64,000 bases of DNA from Sulfuriflexus mobilis. GTDB taxonomy: Bacteria > Pseudomonadota > Gammaproteobacteria > AKS1. The notes under the pieces are model-generated. The model ran no database searches. It was not told the origin of the DNA and saw only the letters and a program-made list of their open reading frames with translations. The position numbers and the translations under genes are program-made. Positions 25,024 through 36,692 of the stretch are shown piece after piece. The stretch is from NCBI RefSeq assembly GCF_003967195.1, contig NZ_AP018725.1:2170001-2234000 (forward strand), in the 5' to 3' direction. The stretch's first letter is position 1, and every line of letters starts with the position of its first letter.

Positions 25024-26058
25024 ATGCAAACACTGACCCTGACACAACCTGATGACTGGCACCTGCATGTCCGCGATGCTGACGTACTATCCAGCGTAAT
25101 GCCACATACGGCCAGGCAGTTTGCCCGCGCTATCATCATGCCCAACCTGAAACCACCCGTGACTAACGTCGAGGCGGCAATGGCCTATCGCCAGCGTATT
25201 CTCGATAGCTGTCCTCAGGGCAGCCCGTTTCAGCCCCTGATGACCCTGTACCTGACAGACAAGACCTCGGCTGAAGAAATTGCCCGGGCGGCCGAAAACG
25301 CATTTGTGCATGCCGTAAAACTCTATCCCTCAGGTGCCACTACCAACTCGGATGCCGGTGTAACCGATATCCGGCATACCCATGCCGCACTGGCCGCCAT
25401 GCAGGAAACCGGCCTGCCCTTGCTCATTCACGGTGAGGTGACGGACCCGGCCATTGATGTCTTTGACCGTGAGACCGTCTTTATCCATGAACAGCTGCTG
25501 CCCCTGCTGGAGAAGTTCCCTGATCTGAAGGTTGTCCTTGAACACATTACCACGGGTGATGCCGCGGACTTCGTCCTCAATGCACCGGACAACGTCGCCG
25601 CCACCATTACGGCACATCATTTGTTAATGAACCGCAATGCCATGTTCGTGGGCGGCATACGACCGCACCACTATTGCCTGCCCATACTCAAGCGCGAGGA
25701 ACATCGGCAGATCCTTGTCGATGTCGCGACCAGTGGTAACAAGAAGTTTTTCCTCGGCACCGACAGCGCCCCCCATGCACAAGGGGCAAAGGAGAGTGCC
25801 TGTGGTTGTGCCGGCATGTACACGGCCCACGCCGCGATCGAATTATATGCCGAGGCCTTCGAGGCGGCGGGGGCGCTGGATAAACTTGAGGGTTTTGCCA
25901 GTTTCCATGGCGCGGATTTCTATGGCCTGCCCAGGAATACCGGCACGATCACCCTGGAACAGAGACCATGGCAGGTGCCAGACAGCTATCCACTCGGTGA
26001 TGAAGTCCTTATCCCCTTACGTGCCGGCGAAACGCTACGCTGGTCTGTCCGTCAGTAG
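25024..26058 (+). CDS. pyrC: Dihydroorotase
   Basis: A 344-residue class II dihydroorotase, the usual length for this group. It cyclises carbamoyl aspartate to dihydroorotate in pyrimidine synthesis. Metal ligands are visible in DDWHLHVRD, the carboxylated Lys in [15 protein letters not shown], then [18 protein letters not shown] and the catalytic Asp in [10 protein letters not shown]. Its last seven bases overlap the end of the convergent PqiA-like gene. Confidence 0.96.
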
Positions 26059-26570
26059 CCAGACTCGGCCTGTTTAAGGCAGGCATCGGTCAGTTTGATC
26101 ACGCGGGCGGTAATATACATCGTTAGCAATACGGCGAGGGCAAAGGCATACAGGCCAATATGTACCTGCACGGCAAAGAGATAACCCAGTTTTAGTGCGA
26201 CGATCAGAATGGCAACGACAAAGACATCCAGCATCGACCACTTGCCATAATCATGCATATACCTGAGGTGGCGCTGAGAATTCGAGTCCGTAGCGCTACC
26301 CGCCACCAGTCGATACAGAACAACTATTTTCATCAAGGGCAAGATGATGCTGAATGTCGCTAACAGCAAAAATAACAGCCATTGCCCTTCCCTTAATAAT
26401 TCGAATACCCCGCTCACCACAGAGAATGTGTTTTCGAGCACGATAAACTTTTCAATGGTCAGCATCGGCGCAAACAGACCGACAGCCAGACACAGCAGGT
26501 TCAGGCCAATGAGCCAGCGAAGCCATCTTGCCTGACGGGGGAATTGTGTTGAAATGGTCTTGTCTGCCAT
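26052..26570 (-). CDS. PqiA-family inner-membrane protein
   Basis: A 172-residue protein started at 26570 ([20 protein letters not shown]); the longer frame to 26627 lacks support. It has four hydrophobic segments and the paraquat-inducible protein A pattern: [33 protein letters not shown], then [20 protein letters not shown] (the family GKWSM.D motif). E. coli PqiA is part of a lipid-transport envelope system with MCE proteins, but no MCE partner is adjacent. It is about half the length of E. coli PqiA, with a single PqiA domain. Confidence 0.8.
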
Positions 26571-26627
26571 CCCAGCACAATAATCAAAATGGCACGGGCT
26601 TTCAAATGCCGCGCCGTCATTACCCAC

Positions 26628-27920
26628 TCAGAAGGTATAAGGGAACTTCATGCTGAAGGTCACATCCGGCGCATCAGTATTCAGCCCAATGCCAATATTC
26701 GTGATCCAGGATGACATATCACTCAAGGCATAGGTTGCACCAATGTTTAGCTGGGCACTATTCGCGTCACTGCCTATAATCGACTGCCAATCACCAGTGC
26801 TATCCAGCTTTTGACGTGACTTGCCGGTAAAGCTCTGATTATAACCAAAGCTCATACTGGTGCGCTCATTCAGGGCAAAGGCAATACCGAGACCGTAGCT
26901 AAAGGTCGAGCCCAGATCGATACTCCCTGGCTGTTTGCCGTCAGCCGAACTAATATCGCCAAAGTCATCCTCGAGGTTATGTGTGTAATTGACGCTGGCA
27001 AACAGGATAGCCGGGTCTACTGTCCTGACAAATGACAATCCTGTAGATAGTGCCCATAGGCCATTACCACTGGGCAATTCTTCCGGAATCATCAGGTTAC
27101 CTGAACCGTCAACATCGATAATCGAGATACCGTATGGGTCACTACCCGTCGGTGCCTTGACCCGGACATTCCAGACAACATCAGGCCAATTAGTTTGTTC
27201 TTTGACTAACTGGTAGTAAAAACCGGCACTCACATCACCAAGTTCTGTGTCCAGGGTAATATCTTCTTCAATCAGACTGGTTGATGCGCCACCAGCGCCA
27301 ACAGACTGGTAATTGGTATTTCTGTAAACAAAGGGAATATTAAAATCGAGTTGTATTCTGTCAGTCAGGCCATAACGTCCTGCCAAGTCGAGAGTCAGAA
27401 TCTGTGCTTCGACCTCATCGACGCTGATTGTACCTAAAAATATAGAATCAAGGGCGAGGAAGCCGTTTAACAATAACTGGTTACGGTCAAAGCTAGTGTA
27501 AGTAAAACCCGGCTCAAAAGTAAACTTTCTGTCAAACAGCGCATGCTGTTCCTGATAGACGGCCTGCGTACTACGACTGGCTGGGGCCTCCCTTATCACC
27601 TCTTCCTCAGCCGCCCTCTTAGCCGGTGGTTTTGCCTGTTGGCTGGTCGTATTATCCTGTGCCAACTGAATGTTCTTGTCCCCCTTATACACCGTCTTAA
27701 CAATGCCGCCAGTCTGTTGATAGGACGGCTTGCTATAGAAGGCCAAGCGATCGAGACGCGCCTCCAGCTTCATCAGGCGCAAGGCCTGTTCATCGTACTT
27801 TCCCCTCAAGTCATTAAGTTCACTACGTAGACGTTCAGTCTCTGCATTGTCGGCAACAGCAGACGTCGCGAACATAGTGCCAATGACGACGGCAAGATAT
27901 CTCTTCCTGATAATAGACAT
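26628..27920 (-). CDS. FapF-like outer-membrane beta-barrel with N-terminal coiled coil
   Basis: A 430-residue exported protein that closes the amyloid-type operon. A signal peptide (about residues 1-23, ending SAVA) is followed by a coiled coil (ETERLRSELNDLRGKYDEQA), a linker with Gln, Pro and Ala, and from about residue 130 a membrane beta-barrel with alternating strands ending in the C-terminal aromatic (FSMKFPYTF). Pseudomonas FapF, the Fap amyloid exporter, has the same plan: a coiled coil, an N-terminal plug region and a 12-strand barrel, at nearly the same length. The gene position (last, after C39 peptidase and repeat protein) also matches. Annotation pipelines may call it simply a transporter. 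Homology to FapF is inferred from architecture and context. Confidence 0.65.
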   Translation of the reverse strand: MSIIRKRYLAVVIGTMFATSAVADNAETERLRSELNDLRGKYDEQALRLMKLEARLDRLAFYSKPSYQQTGGIVKTVYKGDKNIQLAQDNTTSQQAKPPAKRAAEEEVIREAPASRSTQAVYQEQHALFDRKFTFEPGFTYTSFDRNQLLLNGFLALDSIFLGTISVDEVEAQILTLDLAGRYGLTDRIQLDFNIPFVYRNTNYQSVGAGGASTSLIEEDITLDTELGDVSAGFYYQLVKEQTNWPDVVWNVRVKAPTGSDPYGISIIDVDGSGNLMIPEELPSGNGLWALSTGLSFVRTVDPAILFASVNYTHNLEDDFGDISSADGKQPGSIDLGSTFSYGLGIAFALNERTSMSFGYNQSFTGKSRQKLDSTGDWQSIIGSDANSAQLNIGATYALSDMSSWITNIGIGLNTDAPDVTFSMKFPYTF

Positions 27921-28045
27921 AGCGTTCCCTTTTTCTTATCTGACAACGGCAATTATTTGCTTCCCCCATCGCCAACACGCATATAACAAAACCAGTTTTT
28001 ACAGTAAGTTATATGGTATTGGCGACACCTCAATCTCATGCTCCT

Positions 28046-28084
28046 CACAATTCCAGTCAATACGTATTTTTGCGTATAATTGTG
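28046..28084. repeat. Nested inverted repeat after the third repeat-protein gene
   Basis: Outer arms CACAATT / AATTGTG (28046-28052 and 28078-28084) and inner arms ATACG / CGTAT (28060-28064 and 28073-28077). It lies just downstream of the stop at 28101 on the minus strand, between that gene and the barrel gene. It may be an operon-internal mRNA structure or a regulator site. Confidence 0.4.
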
Positions 28085-28100
28085 TTATGTGGCTGCTACC

Positions 28101-28967
28101 CTATAGTCTGCCAATGCTCTGCAGACCACGCAGACTGCTAAGGGCCGTCCCTAGCTCTGGTCGCTGCAGGCCATTTGCGACCTGCTGCTGTCTGGCAACA
28201 ATATTAATTACATTGCTAACCTGGTACTGGTTGCTACTTATCTGTACACGTTGACTGATACCATTAGCCTGGTTCTGAGCCGCATTACGGACATTCTGTG
28301 ATACCTCGATATCACCGGGCAAAGCGACGGTGTAACCAAAACCATCTTTATTCAGACTGAAGGTAGTGGTCGTGCCTGCATCGCCAGTGATACTTTTTGT
28401 GCCAGGGCCATCAAAGTTACTGCTGACTTCCCCCCTATCAGAAAAAAAGCTTTCTGGGCCGCCGACATCACTTGATATATCAATAGCAAGCTCATTACTA
28501 ACCTCGTTCAGGTCACCCGCAATCTGGATACTCTGACTGACACCCTCAATGTTATCCAGACCATCAGAGCTAATACTGGTCAAGTTGTTTGCGCCGAAAC
28601 TTGAGCCACCAGCACCTTCAACAGCTGCCGTACTGGAATGGTAGACCGTGACGGTTGGGCGGATAGCAGTCGATGAAACAATATTGGTAGCAAACTCTAT
28701 ACCTGCTGTGGTGATCCGCCCCGTGTTGCTGGCCACTTTTGTATACATTTCTACACCAAAATAGGTAATCTGGTTCCCGCCTGTATAACGGCCACGTAGA
28801 CCTCCGAGCTCCTCATCGGATAGCTCAATCTCATCATTGAAAGCATACAAATCGCTATCGATCATTGCGTGTGCCGTAGGTATGAATAATAGACCGCAAC
28901 CCAGAACTACTACGGCCGAAATGCCAGTGATACGAACTCGTGAATGTCTGTTCATCATCTTCCCCAT
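28101..28967 (-). CDS. Exported repeat protein in the FapE position, with leader-like motif
   Basis: A 288-residue exported protein (start may also be the second or third Met). Signal peptide residues about 10-34 (AVVVLGCGLLFIPTAHA). Residues 48-60 read ELSDEELGGLRGR, similar to the leader peptides cut by C39 peptidases, and a C39 peptidase gene lies just upstream. Residues 142-162 and 236-256 are two copies of the G-x8-G-x2-N-x3-N-x-LA repeat seen in the two amyloid-like proteins of the same operon; the second copy is degenerate (the second Gly is Ser and the first Asn is Tyr). The remaining sequence is rich in Ser, Thr, Asn and Gly. By position it corresponds to Pseudomonas FapE; sequence similarity to FapE itself is not clear to me. 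Confidence 0.6.
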   Translation of the reverse strand: MGKMMNRHSRVRITGISAVVVLGCGLLFIPTAHAMIDSDLYAFNDEIELSDEELGGLRGRYTGGNQITYFGVEMYTKVASNTGRITTAGIEFATNIVSSTAIRPTVTVYHSSTAAVEGAGGSSFGANNLTSISSDGLDNIEGVSQSIQIAGDLNEVSNELAIDISSDVGGPESFFSDRGEVSSNFDGPGTKSITGDAGTTTTFSLNKDGFGYTVALPGDIEVSQNVRNAAQNQANGISQRVQISSNQYQVSNVINIVARQQQVANGLQRPELGTALSSLRGLQSIGRL

Positions 28968-29078
28968 GAAAATTTAAACAGCGATTTAATAACACACCTG
29001 TTTTTCTCAGCAACATATTTTTTGGAATAATGTGTAATTTGCGCCGCACCAATTAATAAAAAATACCCACGCCTTACT

Positions 29079-29807
29079 TTAAAAAAGTTCTGCATGGGTA
29101 AAACCGAACTTCAATAAATCATTGTTTGTTAGCGGGATATGTGCTCGCGCTAAACCACGTGCTGTCACCGGCGCCGCGGGTTGCATCAAAACCGTATTAC
29201 GGTCAAAGCCCTTGCCAATTACAGCAAATACCACCCCATTCCAAATCTTGTTAAACTCTTCAAAACTCAGTATTTTGTTACCCAGTGCCGGGTCAGCAAT
29301 GTAGACCTTGCCATCACGATAGGTCTTAAAGACCACGAAGTGTTTATAGCCACGTATATCAACCAGGGCAATGATGGGAATTTTGATCCTTGATAATGTG
29401 CCTGACTTTACCTTATAACCACGGCCCCTCAGTCCGATAGATTGTGTATAACGCTTGATATCCAGTAGTGAAAAACCCCTTTTCCTGACCGTCTCCGGGT
29501 CACTTACTTTCAACATGCCACGCAGCACTGACTCCTCTGTGACATCACGACCATAGGCATACTTGAGAATGGTGGCTAGGGCAGCAGCGCCACAACTGAA
29601 ATCTGTATCTTGCCTAACCAGATTCACATAACGCTGTTCGCGCAGACTAATAACTTGTTTATTAATCACGCCAGCACCAGGTAGGATGCTACCAAAACGC
29701 ACCTCACTGGCCCCTGTCATTGATGACATGAAGAGTAATAGCATCAAGCTAAGAGCACTGACATACCTCATCAGACAATACGTAATTCGATCGTTATCAT
29801 TTTTCAT
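29079..29807 (-). CDS. C39-family cysteine peptidase (FapD-like)
   Basis: A 242-residue exported peptidase (start at 29807 chosen; 29825 possible). A signal peptide (about 1-30) precedes the C39 domain: the catalytic Cys in DFSCGAAALATILKYAYG, preceded by Asp-Thr-Asp in VRQDTDFSC, a central strand GRGYKVKSGTLSRIKIP, the catalytic His in RGYKHFVVFK, and the Asp in YIADPALGNK. It has no membrane domain or ABC ATPase, unlike bacteriocin exporters, which matches Pseudomonas FapD, a stand-alone C39 peptidase needed for amyloid export. It probably trims a protein of this operon in the periplasm. Confidence 0.85.
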   Translation of the reverse strand: MKNDNDRITYCLMRYVSALSLMLLLFMSSMTGASEVRFGSILPGAGVINKQVISLREQRYVNLVRQDTDFSCGAAALATILKYAYGRDVTEESVLRGMLKVSDPETVRKRGFSLLDIKRYTQSIGLRGRGYKVKSGTLSRIKIPIIALVDIRGYKHFVVFKTYRDGKVYIADPALGNKILSFEEFNKIWNGVVFAVIGKGFDRNTVLMQPAAPVTARGLARAHIPLTNNDLLKFGFTHAELF

Positions 29808-29841
29808 GTTCAAGTAGCCTGTCATATATTATTGATTGGAA

Positions 29842-29871
29842 TATGCCGACCGGATGATTCCGGCCGGCATA
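29842..29871 (-). terminator. Hairpin between the major repeat protein and the C39 peptidase
   Basis: TATGCCGACCGG and CCGGCCGGCATA arms, one mismatch, six-base loop. There is no T-run, so it may act as an mRNA 3-prime stabiliser that raises the level of the upstream amyloid message relative to the peptidase, rather than as a full terminator. Confidence 0.5.
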
Positions 29872-29888
29872 CCAGTCAGTAGGTGATA

Positions 29889-31055
29889 TCAGAACTCACC
29901 ACCAGGCATACCTGTACCAGTCGATACACCGAGCGCAAGGCTGTTGTTCTGCTGGTTACCCGTGCCTGAAGCGATGTTCACCCCGATATTACCCGAGGCA
30001 CCTGCCAATGCGTTGCCTGACAGGCTTGCATTGTTGACGGAAGGTATATAGACATCCCAGGACTGCGAATAAGAGCCACTGAAATAACCTGACAGGTGAA
30101 TCTCACCTACTTCGTTGAAGGCCAGCGCACCGCCATCACCATTAAGGTCTTGTGCACCCTGAGCCTCACTATCAAAATCACTATGGCCCAGGAGAGCGCC
30201 ATCTGTAGGATGATTAGGTAGACCTGTAGTGCCTGCAGCCCAGTTATCTACATACAGGTCGCCGATCTGATCCGAGGTGCCTTCGTATCCACCCCACAGT
30301 TCAGTTTCTCCGGAGAAACTGCCACTCTTCGATAGCGTGACTACCTTGCCAGTATTATGAGTAATATTACGATCAGATTCCTGATCGGACGTCACCATGG
30401 CAAGTCCCACGCCGCCGGTGGATACGGCTGCAGCCAGGTTGTTCTTCTGCTGGTTGCTGTTGCCAGCCGAGATGTTTACGCCGATGTTGCCAGTAGCACC
30501 TTTTAACACATTGTCACGCACACTTGCGTTGTTATACACACCATAATTTTCAGTGTAGTTGAACTCACCGTCTTGCGAGGAATGAGCCTGTCCATCGGCT
30601 GCACCAAACGTCATCTCGGCATCAGCCACGGCCAGGGCAGCGGCATTATCCTGCTGGTTGTTGGTACCCGCTGTGATGTTGAGGCCAATATTACCTGCGG
30701 CGTTACTGAGGGAATCTCCTGAGGCATTGGCATTGTTATTATGCCCGTCATTGTAGACCTCATTAAGCTTATTACTCTGCTTGTCGTCGGTTACCGCCCG
30801 AGCATAGGCGTTAGGGTCCAGATCAACACCTATATTGACTTCAACACTTTCGTCATAGTCAAAGTCTTTCTCAATATTGACATCCACATTGTTGCTACTT
30901 GTCGTGATGTCAAGGTCAAGATTTAGCTCGAGGTCTGCCTTAGCGGTAAAGGTATGGTCATTATCGTCATGACTCTCTGTGGCAAAGGTCAGCGGTGACG
31001 CGATGAGCGCAGCAACTGCCAGGGCCATAGGTGTGTATTTAAATTGCATCTTCAT
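29889..31055 (-). CDS. Major amyloid-like repeat protein (FapC-like)
   Basis: A 388-residue protein with a signal peptide (MALAVAALIASPLTFA, cut near 26) and an Asp-rich start (residues 28-85). Three copies of a 21-residue unit occupy 121-141, 189-209 and 355-375, each reading close to GNIGVNIASGTGNQQNNSLA, preceded by NNAS-type segments. The linkers are unequal: 47 and 145 residues, the second rich in Gly, Ser, Asp and aromatic residues. Three repeats with a long second linker is the plan of Pseudomonas FapC, whose repeats form the fibre core. There is no Cys at all, unlike FapC, which has a C-terminal Cys motif. AGGAGA lies six bases before the ATG. Confidence 0.7.
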   Translation of the reverse strand: MKMQFKYTPMALAVAALIASPLTFATESHDDNDHTFTAKADLELNLDLDITTSSNNVDVNIEKDFDYDESVEVNIGVDLDPNAYARAVTDDKQSNKLNEVYNDGHNNNANASGDSLSNAAGNIGLNITAGTNNQQDNAAALAVADAEMTFGAADGQAHSSQDGEFNYTENYGVYNNASVRDNVLKGATGNIGVNISAGNSNQQKNNLAAAVSTGGVGLAMVTSDQESDRNITHNTGKVVTLSKSGSFSGETELWGGYEGTSDQIGDLYVDNWAAGTTGLPNHPTDGALLGHSDFDSEAQGAQDLNGDGGALAFNEVGEIHLSGYFSGSYSQSWDVYIPSVNNASLSGNALAGASGNIGVNIASGTGNQQNNSLALGVSTGTGMPGGEF

Positions 31056-31142
31056 AGTAGTTCTCCTAGTTGGTGTTTACAGTGTTTATGGTTATACCCC
31101 GTCCCTTATATTCCATCCCGCCGGGGTCGTGCAGGGGGGAAT

Positions 31143-31772
31143 TCATTTCGCACCCGTAGAGATGCGTAGTGCAAAATTATTTCTCGTTGCATTGCCGGAA
31201 CCAGCTGTCTGGTTAATTTGCACAATGCCACGACTATTCTCGAACGCTGTTGATTCGATATCCGCTATACGGATACCTGGTTTGTCTAGCCCCTTGACAA
31301 CCGGGGCAATTGCATAACCTGTAATCGACTGCGACAATTCCACATCGGTAATCGCCTCAACACCCACACCATAGGCAATACCGTTAGCCTGCGTATTACT
31401 TACCCCACTTATCTGGTTGATGGAGAGGATACCGGTAGAATTAGAAAAGGCATTGCCGCGAATACTGGTTATACTGATATCAGGAACAGTCCCTTGGCCC
31501 AGAGCCGTTGCTTGGTGGCTGGCTATTCTGCTTCTCGCGATCCCGGTTGCACTGATGGCAATGGCCGCAGCATTAGCCTGTAGGTTGGCATCACCTGCCA
31601 CCAGATTAATTCCCACTGCGCCGTTGACGCCGGCAAGTGCATCACCCTCGACAATTGATTCAGTTATATATGACGGCAACACCACCTCAAAGTCATTTGC
31701 CTGTGCCGATATGGGTAGACTGCTTGTTATGCTGCTCAACACTGCGAGCAAGGCCCCTGTATAATGATTCAT
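31143..31772 (-). CDS. Minor amyloid-like repeat protein (FapB-like nucleator candidate)
   Basis: A 209-residue protein, started at 31772 because AGGA lies seven bases upstream of that ATG. After a signal peptide (about 1-27, ending SAQA) it is nearly all repeat. The 21-residue units are at about 51-71, 114-134 and 182-202, for example GAVGINLVAGDANLQANAAA and GILSINQISGVSNTQANGIA. Their G, N, Q/A, G, N and N positions match those of the larger repeat protein. FapB of Pseudomonas, the nucleator, likewise has three repeats with short linkers and precedes fapC. Function is inferred from this. Confidence 0.65.
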   Translation of the reverse strand: MNHYTGALLAVLSSITSSLPISAQANDFEVVLPSYITESIVEGDALAGVNGAVGINLVAGDANLQANAAAIAISATGIARSRIASHQATALGQGTVPDISITSIRGNAFSNSTGILSINQISGVSNTQANGIAYGVGVEAITDVELSQSITGYAIAPVVKGLDKPGIRIADIESTAFENSRGIVQINQTAGSGNATRNNFALRISTGAK

Positions 31773-31813
31773 TATCATGTCCTGGTTACGCTCTATGTTC
31801 CACGTTCAAATAT

Positions 31814-32251
31814 TTATTTTGAACTTGAATAAAACAATGACATCCAAAGAATTTTTCTAAGCATTGCCACACCCTTTGCATTCATCTTACGGTGTCGCGG
31901 ATTATTCCGGGTAATAGCCTCTTCAGGCTTTACCACTATCTCTTCAACCATTTCTTGTTCGGAATTATCCATATCCTGTACATAACCATCCGGCTCGGTT
32001 GCTAACCCTTCCTCTATGTTCAACAAGTCACCCTCTATCAGACTATCTGCCGGGGCCGAAATGGACTTGATACTGGCATCAAGTTTATGCCTCGAAAAAT
32101 TAGGCAACGCATCATTCTCGACCAGTGCGATATCTTCCTGCATTGGCGTTAAGCCCTGAGTTGACTCTTGCGACCAGACCACATCAGACCCCAGCAGAAC
32201 AATCATCATGCTTGCAATCTTCCATAAACTCTTCTGTGTCAGATTCCGCAT
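31814..32251 (-). CDS. Exported acidic protein in the amyloid-type operon
   Basis: A 145-residue protein with a signal peptide (IASMMIVLLGSDVVWS) and a mature part that is acidic and poorly ordered (ADSLIEGDLLNIEEGLATEP, DNSEQEMVEEIVVKPEEA), closed by a basic segment with RHRKMNAKGVAMLRKILWM. A GAGG site is nine bases before the ATG; the upstream gene ends 14 bases earlier. By position and by its disordered character it could do the job of FapA, the small periplasmic chaperone of Pseudomonas, but I see no direct sequence similarity, so the role is a guess. Confidence 0.6.
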   Translation of the reverse strand: MRNLTQKSLWKIASMMIVLLGSDVVWSQESTQGLTPMQEDIALVENDALPNFSRHKLDASIKSISAPADSLIEGDLLNIEEGLATEPDGYVQDMDNSEQEMVEEIVVKPEEAITRNNPRHRKMNAKGVAMLRKILWMSLFYSSSK

Positions 32252-32265
32252 GATATATACCTCGG

Positions 32266-32580
32266 CTAATTTCTGTTAAACCTCACGCTCACATTCTGTG
32301 TGTTTCCACTACCGCTCATGCTGTTATGCTGCACTGATTGTTTGCCACTGCCTTTTTCATCCCAGAGAATGACAGACACTGCCTCTGGTCGGTTTGGCGT
32401 ATGGCCATCGGCGCCTTTGCCACTAATTTCATGTAATTCACTATCCTCGACATGTTCACCATCTATTAGCGCTGCGTCCGCCAGAATGAAGGCCTTATCA
32501 TTACCCTCGGCATGTAACACACCACTGACCAGCAGCAACAAGCTTGCTATGAAACATGTGGCATAAATATGTTTTTTCAT
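32266..32580 (-). CDS. Small exported protein with C39-leader-like motif, first gene of operon
   Basis: A 104-residue protein with a signal peptide (about 1-24, ending VLHA). Residues 45-57 read VEDSELHEISGKG, which lines up with ELSDEELGGLRGR of the third repeat protein in this operon (shared D-x-E-L-x2-I/L-x-G-K/R), close to the L-x2-E-L-x2-I-x-G leader pattern cut by C39 peptidases. The part after the motif is Gly, Ser and Asn rich (KGSGKQSVQHNSMSGSGNTQ). It follows the sigma-54 promoter, 54 bases from the -12 element, and a GAGG site lies eight bases before its ATG. Function unknown; it could be a processed structural or signalling peptide. Confidence 0.6.
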   Translation of the reverse strand: MKKHIYATCFIASLLLLVSGVLHAEGNDKAFILADAALIDGEHVEDSELHEISGKGADGHTPNRPEAVSVILWDEKGSGKQSVQHNSMSGSGNTQNVSVRFNRN

Positions 32581-32634
32581 TTCCCGACCTCAAGCCGCTA
32601 TGCATTATTTGGCGTTGATGTTTATTGTTTATAG

Positions 32635-32650
32635 TGCAACCGCCATGCCA
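32635..32650 (-). promoter_or_regulatory. Sigma-54 promoter (-24/-12) of the amyloid-type operon
   Basis: The minus strand reads TGGCATGGCGGTTGCA. This is TGGCAY-N5-TTGCA with exactly the spacing sigma-54 requires, and both invariant GG and GC pairs are present. The -12 element is about 55 bases before the first ATG of the operon. A sigma-54 activator gene (with GAFTGA) lies directly upstream. Confidence 0.8.
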
Positions 32651-32830
32651 AAAACATAAGCTGCTGTACTGACTGAGGTTTTTCTGAGGCGCTACGTAAA
32701 CGGGTTTTGCGGATGTATATAATGTGAAACACCATCTTGCGGGAAGGGCCTGTCAGCTATTAGATAACAAACACTTAAACCACATTGTAAGGTGTAAAGC
32801 TTTTGTATAAGTAAGATCACGCGGCGGGGA

Positions 32831-32847
32831 GGTGCACGCCATGCACC
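32831..32847. promoter_or_regulatory. GGTGCA-N5-TGCACC dyad, candidate activator site
   Basis: Perfect 6-bp arms around CGCCA. It lies about 200 bases upstream of the sigma-54 promoter and 55 bases after the stop of the VpsR-like activator gene, so it may be its enhancer site or a hairpin ending that gene. Confidence 0.4.
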
Positions 32848-32901
32848 AGCTACTGTGGCGCATACTGCATATACGGGGGAACAACAGGAAACTAATTACA
32901 G

Positions 32902-34245
32902 CTAGAGAGAGATGGAATGTTTTTCCATGAGGCGATAGAGCGTCACACGTGAGACGCCCAGATTCTTAGCCGCCAGTGAGACATTATTTCTACATTGTTT
33001 CAGACCGGCGATGATCGTATCTACCTCAGCATTATTACGCGCATCATCAAGGCGCTGAATCCGACGGCACGGACCGCGTCTTTCCAAACCAAGGTCAGCC
33101 GCACTGATCAGACGACCCTCACACATCAGCATTGCACGTCTTACCTTGTTAATCATCTCGCGGACATTGCCCGGCCAGGGATAATCATTCAGCGCCTGCA
33201 GGGCATGCTGGCTAAAGCCGTTGACGCCATTGCCGGCCTCGTTATGGAATTTTTTAAAAAAATACTTTGCCAGCACTTCTATATCATCGACGCGCTCACG
33301 CAACGGCGGCACATATAAATTTACGACATTTAGCCGATAATACAGGTCTTCACGAAACCGTCCTGCCTGCACCGCCTGCTCGAGGTCAACATGCGTGGCG
33401 GCAATCACCCTGACATCAATATGTAATGAACTGGTTCCACCTACCCGCTCAATCGTCTTCTCCTGTAAAAACCTCAACAGGCTGGTCTGTTGCTCAAGCG
33501 GCAAATCACCGATCTCGTCCAGAAACAGTGTGCCACCAGTGGCTGCCTCTATCTTGCCGATTTTCCGCTGATGAGCACCTGTGAACGCACCCTTCTCATG
33601 CCCGAAGAGTTCGGTCTGGATCAGCTTTTCAGGTAATGCGCCACAGTTGACGGCTACAAACGGGGAATTACTCCGTTCTGAACGTTCATGAATAGCCAAC
33701 GCTGAAAGTTCCTTGCCGGTTCCGGATTCTCCATTAATGAGAACCGGGGCATCGACCCGGGCAAGCTTGCGTATATTGGCAAAATGCACCCGCATAACCG
33801 GGCTTACGCCTACCATTTCATCCTCATCACTGGATACAGTAATTTCTTCTGATAGCCTGTTTTTCAGGGTTGACATGCCATAGGCATGTCCCAGAGTGTT
33901 CAGCAGAATCTTCGGACGAGTAGGCAGGGTATGATAATCGTAGAATCCGTTAAGAATGGTGTTCCTGCACAAGTCATTATCAAGTAGTTCACGCCTGGTG
34001 AGCAGGGCCACCCACTCCGCCCGTGAGCGGATAAGGATATTTTCTAACTGTTTTATCTGTTGAGGATTATTCGTATCCAGGTGGGCCAGGCCGACCCTGT
34101 ATTCATGCTTTTCCAGAAGTTCCAACGCCTCTTTCTCGGAGTGTGCGGTATGAATATACCAGCGATCGGTATTTATTTTGTTAATGGCATCTTCATGCAC
34201 ATGCATGGGATTCCAGTAGAAAATATTTCGCCCCCCCGTATCCAT
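32902..34245 (-). CDS. VpsR-like sigma-54-dependent transcriptional activator
   Basis: A 447-residue enhancer-binding protein. Residues 1-130 form a receiver-like VpsR-type domain (FYWNPMHVHEDA ... NGFYDYHTLPTRPKILLNTLGHAYGM). The AAA+ domain (about 145-375) has Walker A GESGTGKE, the sigma-54 contact loop GAFTGAHQ, Walker B GGTLFLDEIGD and the arginine region REDLYYRLNVV. The C-terminus is a Fis-type helix-turn-helix (NVSLAAKNLGVSRVTLYRLM). The receiver-like domain lacks a clear phosphorylation Asp. VpsR regulates biofilm matrix in Vibrio in response to c-di-GMP. Here the sigma-54 promoter of the amyloid-type operon is directly downstream, making that operon the likely target. Confidence 0.85.
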   Translation of the reverse strand: MDTGGRNIFYWNPMHVHEDAINKINTDRWYIHTAHSEKEALELLEKHEYRVGLAHLDTNNPQQIKQLENILIRSRAEWVALLTRRELLDNDLCRNTILNGFYDYHTLPTRPKILLNTLGHAYGMSTLKNRLSEEITVSSDEDEMVGVSPVMRVHFANIRKLARVDAPVLINGESGTGKELSALAIHERSERSNSPFVAVNCGALPEKLIQTELFGHEKGAFTGAHQRKIGKIEAATGGTLFLDEIGDLPLEQQTSLLRFLQEKTIERVGGTSSLHIDVRVIAATHVDLEQAVQAGRFREDLYYRLNVVNLYVPPLRERVDDIEVLAKYFFKKFHNEAGNGVNGFSQHALQALNDYPWPGNVREMINKVRRAMLMCEGRLISAADLGLERRGPCRRIQRLDDARNNAEVDTIIAGLKQCRNNVSLAAKNLGVSRVTLYRLMEKHSISL

Positions 34246-34397
34246 GAACAGCCTCCCGTGCTTGATATTATTATTAGTTAATGAAATTTCCCCGCATGAC
34301 TACTTGCATAAATCGTATACGCCCAATCTGGCTCGCGAAATACGTACTACTACCTGAGGCTGTGATTTTCTTATTTAATAGCTTGAATTAAAAATCA

Positions 34398-35006
34398 TTA
34401 TGCTGATGTAATACCTGCGCGCACAACGTCAGAGATAGTGCTCGCATGCAACTTATTCATAATCTTTGCACGGTGCAGCTCCACTGTGCGAGGACTAATA
34501 TCCAGTTCCCTGGCAATTTCCTTGTTCTGACAGCCGTTCACCAACAAGTCCATCACTTGACGCTCACGTGTCGTTAGTGATTGTATTCTTTTTTGTGATT
34601 TTTCTCTGTACAAGGCTTTTTCTCTGTAATCCTCACATTGCAGCAAACAACCCCTGACGATCTTGATGAGTTTGTCATTATCAAAGGGCTTTTCGATAAA
34701 ATCAAGCACACCCTCTTTCATAGCCTTCACCGCTATACTAATATCTCCGCACCCTGACATCATCACCACAGGCATATAAATAGATTCGCATTCCATTTTT
34801 TCAATCAGCTCAAGCCCTGTCATTCCAGGCATCTTTACGTCGGCCAGCACACAGCCCTGCGCATCTCTGTTTACCTTCACGAGAAAATCCTCTGCTGATG
34901 CAAAAATACTGCTGACGATGCCCTCCGATTCCATAAGCCCCGATATAGCAAGCCTGACACTTTCATCATCATCAATAATATGTACAGCATTACCTGTTTC
35001 AGACAT
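34398..35006 (-). CDS. FixJ/NarL-type response regulator
   Basis: A 202-residue protein; ATG at 35006 has AAAGGA six bases upstream. The receiver domain (about 1-120) has DDDESVR, the phosphorylated Asp in GCVLADVKMPGMTG, the switch Ser in VVMMSGCGD and Lys in FIEKPFDN. The C-terminal LuxR-type helix-turn-helix is SLTTRERQVMDLLVNGCQNK ... LDISPRTVELHRAKIMNKL. The FixJ-like receiver plus the FixL-like kinase upstream point to a redox- or oxygen-linked system in the family, although the signal here is unknown. The kinase stop overlaps the region of the first possible ATG (35012). Confidence 0.92.
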   Translation of the reverse strand: MSETGNAVHIIDDDESVRLAISGLMESEGIVSSIFASAEDFLVKVNRDAQGCVLADVKMPGMTGLELIEKMECESIYMPVVMMSGCGDISIAVKAMKEGVLDFIEKPFDNDKLIKIVRGCLLQCEDYREKALYREKSQKRIQSLTTRERQVMDLLVNGCQNKEIARELDISPRTVELHRAKIMNKLHASTISDVVRAGITSA

Positions 35007-35008
35007 GA

Positions 35009-35887
35009 TCATTCCTTTGTAATATCAAGCATAAAATAAAACTTACTACCACAGCCCTTGGCGCTATTCAGGCATAGGCAACTATTATGTGCATTTATAA
35101 TTGAATGACTAATTGCCAGACCCAGCCCCATGCCATTTGGTTTTGAGGTATAAAAAGGCTGAAAAACCTTTTCCGCCTCAAGCAAAGTCATACCAGAACC
35201 GTTGTCTTTAATAATTACTGCCACGTTATCATCGATGCGTATGACGCTCAATTCAATTTTCTTTGGTTTATTCACATTTCCTTTTACGGCATCTATCGAG
35301 TTTCTTATTAAATTCACTATCACCTGGCCAATCAATAACCTATCGACATTGACTGTCACATCCTGTTCGCTCATATTAATGACAAACATTATGTCATTCA
35401 GTCGCACCTCTATTTCAACAAGCTCGACTACCTCGCTGATAATGTCATTCATAGACATCATCGTTCTTTCAAGATCCTTTTCGACAGTCAAGCGTTTTAA
35501 GCCCTTAATGACTTCGCCTGCTCGCTTTGCCTGTATGCCTATGGTTTTGAGAGAAGTGAGTATTGCATCTTGTCCATGGCTTTCCCTAGCCATGATCTTT
35601 ATTGCCGTATCGGTCAGTATTGAGATCGCCGTAAGTGGCTGGTTAAGTTCATGCGTTAACTCCGCTATTACGCGGTTAATCGCATTTGTTCTTACTGAAT
35701 CAATAATGAGAAGTGGATTGTTGCCATCATGTCCGACTGCTTCGGGCTGATGACTATTTAAGTGTGATTGTGACTGCTGCTGTTGATTGGGTGCCTCTAT
35801 CTGCGTGTGGAAACTTAACTCTGCAGAAGAGAGCCTAATAAATCGACCGTACCATAGAGGTAATACGGCAGCAGTTGGCTTATCCAT
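35009..35887 (-). CDS. FixL-like sensor histidine kinase without visible sensor domain
   Basis: A 292-residue protein started at 35887 (MDKPTAAVLPLW), which has GAGGA seven bases before it; a longer frame reaches 35941. The N-terminal 75 residues hold a Gln/His/Ser-rich linker (IEAPNQQQQSQSHLNSHQPE) and no PAS, heme pocket or membrane helix. The kinase core is complete: HisKA with phospho-His in ELTHELNQPLTAISILT, N box NLIRNSIDAVKG, G1 IKDNGSGMTLLEAEKVFQPF, and GLGLAISHSII. It is probably cytoplasmic and co-transcribed with the response regulator. Input is likely a partner protein. Confidence 0.9.
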   Translation of the reverse strand: MDKPTAAVLPLWYGRFIRLSSAELSFHTQIEAPNQQQQSQSHLNSHQPEAVGHDGNNPLLIIDSVRTNAINRVIAELTHELNQPLTAISILTDTAIKIMARESHGQDAILTSLKTIGIQAKRAGEVIKGLKRLTVEKDLERTMMSMNDIISEVVELVEIEVRLNDIMFVINMSEQDVTVNVDRLLIGQVIVNLIRNSIDAVKGNVNKPKKIELSVIRIDDNVAVIIKDNGSGMTLLEAEKVFQPFYTSKPNGMGLGLAISHSIINAHNSCLCLNSAKGCGSKFYFMLDITKE

Positions 35888-36362
35888 ACTGGATCCTCTC
35901 ACATAGGTTGCTGTCTTCACACTCGGAGCAACCTTGTTCATTCAACAGTGGATTCTTTGCCCCATCTTGTCAATCTATTACTGACTTGATGGTAACGCTT
36001 TCTAAGTACCCTCTCCCCAGAGTGGGTTGTAGCATGTGAAGTGGCTTTTTTACTTTTTTACAAAATCCAAACCACTCCCAGAGCAAGCATCCTACGCTAT
36101 CCTCTAAGACTATGATAATACGTAATTATACTTAACTATACCACCATATACATGCTTTTATAATGGGTATTATTGAGCGTGGTTGATAACCGAAAGCACG
36201 GCTCTGTAAAAAAAATCGGCCCTTTAAGGGGGGTGGGGGAAAGGGCCGATACAAATGAAAGTGCAAGTGTATAACCTGATTGACTGCAGGAAAGTACAAA
36301 CAATATTATTTATGTTTGTGGTACAAAAATATATACGGCCTAATACTTAAAATCCGTTACAT
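35888..36362. other. Intergenic region between the kinase gene and a small membrane protein gene
   Basis: About 475 bp with no convincing gene. It holds a terminator at 36215-36250 for the gene on its right. On the minus strand a TATAAT at 36125-36130 is a possible -10 for the kinase gene, roughly 240 bases before its start. The region is AT-rich. Confidence 0.4.
36215..36250 (-). terminator. Terminator of the small membrane protein gene
   Basis: ATCGGCCCTTT / AAAGGGCCGAT arms around a 14-base G-rich loop; on the minus strand it runs into TTTTTTTTAC. It lies about 110 bases after the stop of the membrane protein gene. Confidence 0.85.
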
Positions 36363-36692
36363 TTATATTACACAACTATCTGACGGCTTCACCTTCCGCA
36401 TCAGGCCTTTAATAATGGTTACAATACCAATAATAAAGGATATCAATAGCAGTGGCCCAATGACTACTATATCAGCACGGGAGTCAATATTCGTCAATTC
36501 CGGTTTCCACTGCGCCAGAAACACCTCCCAGTATCCGTAAATCAGCCACATGACGGCGCAAAAGATCAAAACTATTTTATAGCGAATAATATAACGCGGG
36601 AAAAAAACCGGGATAACAAATATCAGTGCCACCAGCATTACGGCCAGTGGATGGGCAGACAAAAACGCGAAGAGTGGATACAAGTATTGCAC
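36363..36692 (-). CDS. Small inner-membrane protein of unknown function
   Basis: A 109-residue protein starting with GTG and preceded by GGAGGAAGGAA, an excellent ribosome site. Three hydrophobic helices are clear: LAVMLVALIFVIPVFF, VLIFCAVMWLIYGYWEVFL, and IVVIGPLLLISFIIGIVTII, followed by a basic tail (KGLMRKVKPS). No family was recognised. It stands between two long gene-free stretches and ends with its own terminator. Confidence 0.7.
   Translation of the reverse strand: MQYLYPLFAFLSAHPLAVMLVALIFVIPVFFPRYIIRYKIVLIFCAVMWLIYGYWEVFLAQWKPELTNIDSRADIVVIGPLLLISFIIGIVTIIKGLMRKVKPSDSCVI

Follow-up and report, generated by a model that had tools for sequence, protein, structure and literature searches.

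A divergent Fap-type operon of Sulfuriflexus mobilis with a recurring seventh gene and a candidate FapD-read leader

The fapABCDEF operon of Pseudomonas encodes the three-repeat proteins FapB and FapC, the periplasmic C39 peptidase FapD, FapE and the barrel FapF, in the order B-C-D-E-F after fapA (PMC3684753, PMC5557850), and is expressed from a sigma-54 promoter under the control of RpoN and of BrfA, an enhancer-binding protein encoded nearby (PMC9207406). Secretion of Pseudomonas FapC depends on the FapD cysteine; no peptides were detected within the N-terminal ~70 residues of FapE, and FapA-D were without processing (PMC5557850). FapD is essential for the secretion of Fap amyloid, but papers of 2017 and 2018 gave its target as unknown (PMC5557850, PMC6173800). 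Among other C39 enzymes, LahT requires L-12, L-7 and V-4 of the leader, and the narrowing of the pocket at -1 makes canonical members prefer Gly, Ala or Ser at that position (PMC6363468). A C39 peptidase and a FapF-related barrel also lie beside leader-bearing small proteins in the nap island of Neisseria, where these proteins are bacteriocin-like GG-motif peptides and not amyloid repeat subunits (PMC11798529).

The window, that is the whole stretch of 64,000 nucleotides analysed here, carries at 26628-32580 seven co-directional open reading frames in the order gene0-P0002-fapB-fapC-fapD-fapE-fapF, confirming the seven minus-strand genes recognized in a first-pass annotation of the bare sequence. 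The features considered are as follows.

26628..27920, minus strand: FapF, trimeric coiled-coil/12-strand barrel exporter (NCBIfam FapF, 456.5 bits, E 7.5e-137)
27968..28026, minus strand: RNA hairpin in the fapE/fapF gap (121-nt stretch, MFE -32.7 kcal/mol, z -2.2)
28101..28967, minus strand: FapE, 288 aa, two repeats, exported, with leader (NCBIfam FapE, 80.5 bits, E 1e-22)
28788..28823, minus strand: FapE leader, residues 49-60, LSDEELGGLRGR, predicted cut before Tyr61
29079..29825, minus strand: FapD, predicted periplasmic C39 peptidase (NCBIfam FapD, 280.7 bits, E 6.5e-84)
29841..29875, minus strand: strong RNA hairpin in the fapC/fapD gap (MFE -28.9 kcal/mol, z -4.6)
29889..31055, minus strand: FapC, 388 aa, major fibre subunit (NCBIfam FapC, 211.6 bits, cut-off 195)
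31143..31778, minus strand: FapB, 211 aa, three repeats (NCBIfam FapB, 83.6 bits, E 1.3e-23)
31814..32251, minus strand: P0002, FapA candidate by position, 145 aa, exported
32266..32580, minus strand: gene0, 104 aa, with signal peptide, C39-type leader and VILWDE core
32416..32451, minus strand: gene0 leader, residues 44-55, VEDSELHEISGK, predicted cut before Gly56
32635..32650, minus strand: sigma-54 (-24/-12) promoter, TGGCATGGCGGTTGCA, 70 bp upstream of gene0
32902..34245, minus strand: sigma-54 activator with VpsR-type N-domain (Pfam Sigma54_activat 5.5e-71, VpsR 3.3e-14)
34398..35012, minus strand: FixJ-type response regulator (NCBIfam FixJ, 232.9 bits)
35009..35941, minus strand: probable sensor histidine kinase, from the translation read by eye, overlapping the response regulator gene

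The locus is almost certainly a Fap operon. Its proposed Fap-type identity is borne out by NCBIfam profiles run against the barrel, the peptidase and the repeat proteins, which identify FapB, FapC, FapD, FapE and FapF. Both matches called for in the first-pass annotation, of the barrel to FapF and of the peptidase to FapD, were thereby obtained. The label 'divergent' given to it earlier is also fair, since FapC alone passes its curated cut-off, the scores of FapB, FapD, FapE and FapF lying below cut-offs of 190, 330, 250 and 700 bits, respectively. Residues 115-430 of FapF match the solved FapF structure (PDB 5o65, E 1.7e-98), and FapC, the putative fibre former, matches solved FapC fibre structures (chains 9nqd and 9u4u, E 3.9e-22); FapB is presumed to be the minor repeat subunit or nucleator. 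Three GNIGxN..AG..NQQ.N repeats and zero Cys were read in the FapC translation. The lack of Cys had been noted correctly but is not unusual, because FapC of P. putida and P. entomophila is also without the CXXC motif (PMC3684753). The two-repeat protein, previously regarded as not clearly FapE, is FapE. The parallel drawn with fapA-F holds for B-C-D-E-F, whereas P0002 corresponds to FapA by position alone, as a comparison of profiles found no similarity. FapA is frequently missing across the Fap family. A PqiA-like gene downstream, P0008, was considered as a member of the system and rejected, since an unrelated gene takes its place in the same-genus operon.

As in Pseudomonas, a -24/-12 promoter and an adjacent enhancer-binding protein are both present. 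The single promoter proposed earlier was recovered as TGGCATGGCGGTTGCA, which is by its sequence a perfect sigma-54 promoter site and the sole match to the consensus in the 64 kb, where 0.20 would be expected by chance. The same-genus operon has a similar site at -96, and others are found close to the first gene in most other Fap operons; rpoN was found in the genome. A sigma-54 activator adjoins nearly all Fap operons examined, and the VpsR-domain activator of this locus is a probable BrfA counterpart. The FixJ-type response regulator, found at the same location in L002, is a possible upstream regulator of the operon. The Fap family matches, the sigma-54 promoter and the VpsR-domain activator together place the system among those of a known kind.

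The locus differs from fapABCDEF, beyond its divergent sequences, in its additional first gene, gene0, the product of which had zero matches in Pfam and NCBIfam and carries one short Fap-like SGNTQN motif. Related loci were collected by whole-genome searches, since a search of genome contigs by FapF alone had returned one. A gene0 profile finds counterparts in other Fap operons and in C39/barrel loci; the gene occurs in the Fap operons of ~10 genomes, adjoining fapB or fapA, and the order gene0-fapA-fapB, on which the placing of P0002 as FapA candidate is based, is present in L043 and L117. Of the 16 genomes picked solely for a strong match to FapF, seven carry it; further carriers from later searches are G334, G663 and G444, the last of which has a copy in both of its fap operons. 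The same place in the operon is kept across several bacterial families, and the LWD core is invariant in ten divergent sequences, with VILWDE nearly so, beside the leader. Neither the Aeromonas operon nor that of G417, whose FapE passes the curated cut-off, yielded the gene, and broader searches in three orders, covering few genomes, added nothing. As about half of the sampled Fap operons are without gene0, it is not essential to Fap. One gene0-related copy, in L118, appears truncated. The gene product is very likely a genuine Fap component, and what the first-pass annotation had described as an extra first gene is, as a real and recurring seventh component, new and previously undescribed; its putative role is considered below.

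The gene0 protein and FapE have in common a 13-residue motif downstream of the signal peptide, which is newly described here; a leader-like motif in two proteins had been noted before. The motif is spaced like a C39 double-glycine leader, with hydrophobic residues at -12, -7 and -4 and Gly at -2 in both proteins, but Arg or Lys stands at -1. All 21 FapE sequences collected, which are related and do not represent 21 independent events, have Leu/Val/Ile at -12, Leu/Met at -7, Arg at -3, Gly at -2, Arg/Lys at -1 and Tyr/Phe at +1, with a hydrophobic -4 in 18. In gene0 proteins the three hydrophobic positions are kept in 13/13 and Gly -2 in 12/13, and -1 is mostly Arg/Lys, with one Ala (L059). With a leader profile trained on other systems, FapE ranked first and gene0 third among the 284 open reading frames of the window. 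With one trained on the GG leaders of sister systems only, ignoring -1 and +1, and applied to 1766 open reading frames, the 17 FapE proteins then collected all fell within the top 32, and eight of nine gene0 proteins within the top 75. The gene0 leader of the window exceeds shuffled sequences (p 0.002), which those of L052 and L056 individually do not (p 0.084 and 0.064). A profile-profile match between gene0 and FapE is limited to the leader segment (E 8.1e-6). The curated FapE profile loses bits at each motif position tested and at -1 prefers R > K > A > G; a FapE scoring 347.5 bits with it, above the cut-off, in a 6.2-Mb genome reads LKDQELAQLRGK/Y. FapB and FapC are without a leader, and no comparable leader was seen in the Acinetobacter Fil locus. 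A plasmid search for FapE gave no match. A leader-like stretch at residue 30 of the window FapF lies inside the coiled coil and was taken as chance.

In FapD, Q72, C78, H162 and D178 align to Q21, C27, H101 and D117 of LahT (PMC6363468), so that the full catalytic set is kept. It is likely that the leader serves as the FapD recognition signal, and a cut exactly after the Arg or Lys is predicted with slightly better than even confidence; FapB and FapC would probably not be cut. LahT/PCAT-type C39 domains share the peptidase family, the catalytic residues, the -12/-7/-4 hydrophobic spacing and Gly -2, but are cytoplasmic, require a small -1 residue and are parts of ABC transporters (PMC6363468). 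Sister C39/FapF-like systems were found in L058-L062, L074 and L097-L103 and share the C39 peptidase, the barrel and often a sigma-54 activator. In most of them the protein at the FapE position bears a leader, which reads LxxxELxxLRGG/F, with the canonical GG at -2/-1; its alignment with the FapE leader is a second hhalign match only (E 0.012). FapC is not recognized in these systems, and their FapD is without the C-terminal FGFTHADLF tail. Other FapD differences between the Fap and sister clades, e.g. Ala80/Ser, Arg135/Asp and Ile203/Arg, were considered as a candidate -1 pocket. An AlphaFold model of FapD built on two sequences had a pLDDT of 44 and was too poor for inspection of the pocket.

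Considered as a whole, the locus is probably a sigma-54-controlled Fap export operon with a seventh component and a FapD-read leader. By analogy with BrfA, the VpsR-domain activator and RpoN would turn on gene0-P0002-fapBCDEF at commitment to biofilm, and Sec would carry all products into the periplasm, where a helical leader may stay on FapE and the gene0 protein once the signal peptide is removed. FapD may then bind the leader hydrophobic residues at -12, -7 and -4, like bacterial C39 peptidases, and cut after Gly-Arg/Lys, between R60 and Y61 of FapE and between K55 and G56 of the gene0 protein. It is proposed that the trimmed proteins help to open or prime FapF, so that FapB and FapC exit and polymerise. 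On balance we favour, by a little, the view that FapD recognizes a C39 leader of the bacteriocin type, transferred to the periplasm and changed there to end in Gly-Arg/Lys, which is carried by FapE family-wide and by the seventh protein, and that export is gated by removal of the leader from minor subunits and not from the fibre subunit. If true, amyloid export, Nap-like and other C39/barrel systems would form one class reading a common leader. The exactly spaced, family-wide motif and its predicted scissile bond make the question of the FapD target testable, and gene0 is a conserved addition to the inventory of Fap components.

The shared motif might instead be a docking or export signal, the leader helix being bound by FapD or by the FapF coiled coil to recruit FapE and the gene0 protein, with other proteases removing the FapE N-terminus. 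Arg or Lys at -1, where C39 enzymes would have Gly, is unusual and counts against the proposed cleavage, and some C39-like domains merely bind their substrates (PMC5557850). We nevertheless regard docking as rather unlikely, as Pseudomonas secretion requires the catalytic Cys and complete N-terminal processing was reported there for FapE alone (PMC5557850), the sister systems have the canonical GG at the aligned place, and this FapD has every catalytic residue.

As for gene0, it could be a dispensable lineage accessory that Fap biogenesis does not generally need, either a decayed FapE-like paralogue or a minor tip subunit, as its patchy occurrence, with none found in the Aeromonas and G417 operons, and the truncated look of the L118 copy would suggest; the near-invariant core beside the leader, the constant operon place and its presence in both G444 operons make this doubtful, if slightly less so than docking. 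A C39/barrel peptide exporter of the Nap or Fil type, in place of an amyloid system, is highly improbable: FapD and FapF do belong to wider families that include such systems, as seen in FilB/FilC matches and in the Neisseria nap island (PMC11798529), but FapC scores above its cut-off and has fibre structures among its matches, FapB and FapE accompany it in the Fap order, and the FapF profile scores 456 bits here against 163 in one sister system.

An Rfam search of 26000-36500 gave zero family matches for the two intergenic RNA hairpins or any other element. The structure in the fapE-fapF gap of L002 is different but stronger, and the fapC-fapD hairpin has counterparts at the same location in most Fap operons.

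Translation of the window places seven ORFs at 26628-32580, all on the minus strand and in the order described in the first-pass annotation. In the closest relative found, a same-genus MAG named Sulfuriflexus sp., the arrangement is identical: FixJ regulator, sigma-54 activator, gene0 (the first operon gene), a counterpart of P0002 (the next gene, in the fapA position), and fapB to fapF. In NCBIfam profile searches, FapC scored 211.6 bits, above its curated cut-off of 195, with FapF at 456.5 (cut-off 700), FapD at 280.7 (330), FapB at 83.6 (190), and FapE at 80.5 (250); the E-values of the five span 1e-22 to 1e-136. These matches, including those of the barrel (FapF) and the peptidase (FapD), bear out the proposed Fap-type operon. 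Residues 115-430 of the window FapF match crystallised FapF (E 1.7e-98), the window FapC matches two chains of FapC fibres, 9nqd and 9u4u, and FapD Q72, C78, H162, and D178 align to Q21, C27, H101, and D117 named in the C39 peptidase domain LahT (PMC6363468). Judged by its gene order and components, the locus is a Fap operon, a known kind of system. Two supposed peculiarities fall away: the two-repeat protein regarded as not clearly FapE matches the FapE profile, and FapC without Cys also occurs in P. putida and P. entomophila (PMC3684753). Profile comparison of P0002 (145 aa) with FapA showed no similarity; fapA is often deleted within the Fap family (PMC3792158). Elsewhere, FapD at L044 11148-11681, one of several fap loci in genome G264, is apparently frameshifted, its alignment covering the C-terminal half only.

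The extra first gene, gene0 (32266-32580, minus strand), had no match in Pfam or NCBIfam, and no description of it was found in the Fap literature searched. It recurs in other Fap operons. A profile built from its homologues matched few genomes, and each strong match examined sits either within a Fap operon or next to a C39 peptidase and barrel pair (G002, G142, G152, G157, G243, G264 in two places, G281, G334, as well as G663 and the two complete operons of G444). The two G444 gene sets stand in tandem, gene0 in each (L117, G444:C78:1-20000). Among 16 genomes picked by a strong FapF match alone, 7 carried gene0, usually before fapB or before fapA-fapB (L043, L117). Besides a signal peptide and a leader motif, its protein has a core in which LWD is invariant (most copies read VILWDE) and a short Asn/Gln motif resembling a single Fap repeat fragment. 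On this genomic evidence, gene0 is a conserved, undescribed component of Fap operons.

The FapE motif spans -12 to +1 around the predicted cut, the window sequence being LSDEELGGLRGR/Y. Across 21 FapE proteins, including those of Aeromonas caviae and of a 6.2-Mb genome (347.5 bits, above the curated FapE cut-off), position -12 is L/V/I, -7 is L/M, and -4 mostly M/L/I, whereas -3 R, -2 G, -1 R or K, and +1 Y or F hold in 21/21. Against the curated FapE profile, single substitutions in the window FapE cost 2.7-6.3 bits at each of the motif positions tested; at -1, Gly scores below Ala. The putative leader motif therefore belongs to the FapE family and is not peculiar to this genome.

The motif has the same spacing as the double-glycine leaders read by C39 peptidases, in which L-12, L-7, and V-4 occupy a hydrophobic groove (PMC6363468). 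Sister systems share the FapD-like peptidase and FapF-like barrel with Fap loci, and their protein in the FapE place has a leader ending in the canonical GG, among the examples LTDHELSSLRGG/F, VSNQELDQLRGG/F, and ITDYELATMRGG/I. A leader profile was trained on 13 such leaders, picked by eye with -1 and +1 omitted, and tested on different loci. Of 1766 ORFs from Fap loci, the 32 best-scoring included all 17 FapE proteins in the set, with the window FapE 8th and gene0 31st, while the window FapB came 181st and FapC 431st; among the window's 284 ORFs, FapE came 1st and gene0 3rd, which upholds the leader-like motif noted in two proteins. Independently of this profile, hhalign aligned gene0 with FapE over the leader segment only (E 8.1e-6), and FapE with the sister proteins over the C-terminal repeats (E 4.6e-6) and next over the leader, RGRY on RGGF (E 0.012). 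Together, spacing, sister leaders, ranks, and alignments argue for a C39-type leader with an altered -1 residue and a predicted cut site in both FapE and gene0. Some sister systems encode a further small secreted protein whose leader is a variant form (L060 1566, RGMF; L100 7415, RGMN; L101 6893, RAKG; L102 4578, SGRA; L099 13054, RGQG), which suggests that periplasmic C39 peptidases tolerate several residues at -1. Leader-like stretches also occur in some FapF proteins, at no conserved place (window 26628-27920, minus strand, residues 30-42; L043 and L044 near residue 85); FapF cleavage has been suggested (PMC5557850).

In Pseudomonas, FapC secretion requires the FapD cysteine, the first ~70 residues of FapE gave no peptides, and FapA-D showed no processing (PMC5557850). 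The FapD target was left open, Fap proteins being said to lack canonical C39 sequences (PMC5557850, PMC6173800). The predicted leader of the window FapE ends at residue 60, which fits the missing stretch if FapE of Pseudomonas strain UK4 is laid out alike. Neisseria already offers a precedent for the leader principle, a described C39 and FapF-like pair encoded next to GG peptides (PMC11798529); the new step is its application to FapE and gene0, with a changed -1 residue and predicted cleavage. The predicted leader gives a testable answer to what FapD acts on.

A promoter ahead of the operon was confirmed as TGGCATGGCGGTTGCA at 32635-32650 (minus strand); nothing else in the window matches the sigma-54 consensus (0.20 matches expected). 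In the same-genus operon, a site of this kind stands 96 bp upstream of gene0. Most Fap operons have a good site near the first gene, a few being weak or absent (L045, L057). The adjoining sigma-54 activator contains a VpsR domain, and rpoN is found in the genome. In P. fluorescens, fapA-E likewise have a promoter of the RpoN type and depend on BrfA, an enhancer-binding protein that a later report describes as c-di-GMP sensing (PMC9207406, PMC13101488); the regulation is therefore of a known kind. Just beyond the activator, 34398-35941 (minus strand) encodes a FixJ-type regulator and what is probably a histidine kinase; the FixJ-type regulator holds the same position in the same-genus operon.

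Intergenic RNA hairpins of the operon.
29841-29875, minus strand: strong hairpin after fapC, in the fapC-fapD gap (-28.9 kcal/mol, z -4.6)
27968-28026, minus strand: hairpin between fapE and fapF (also at L002:8750-9000, the same-genus operon)

In the 18 Fap operons whose fapC-fapD gap was inspected, most have a hairpin of quite different sequence, some with a T run behind them (L073). By partial termination or by protecting the fapC transcript, such a hairpin may keep the subunits in excess over the products of the export genes. The fapE-fapF hairpin occurs in both same-genus operons; in strain PF07 of P. fluorescens, induction of fapA-E does not extend to fapF (PMC9207406).
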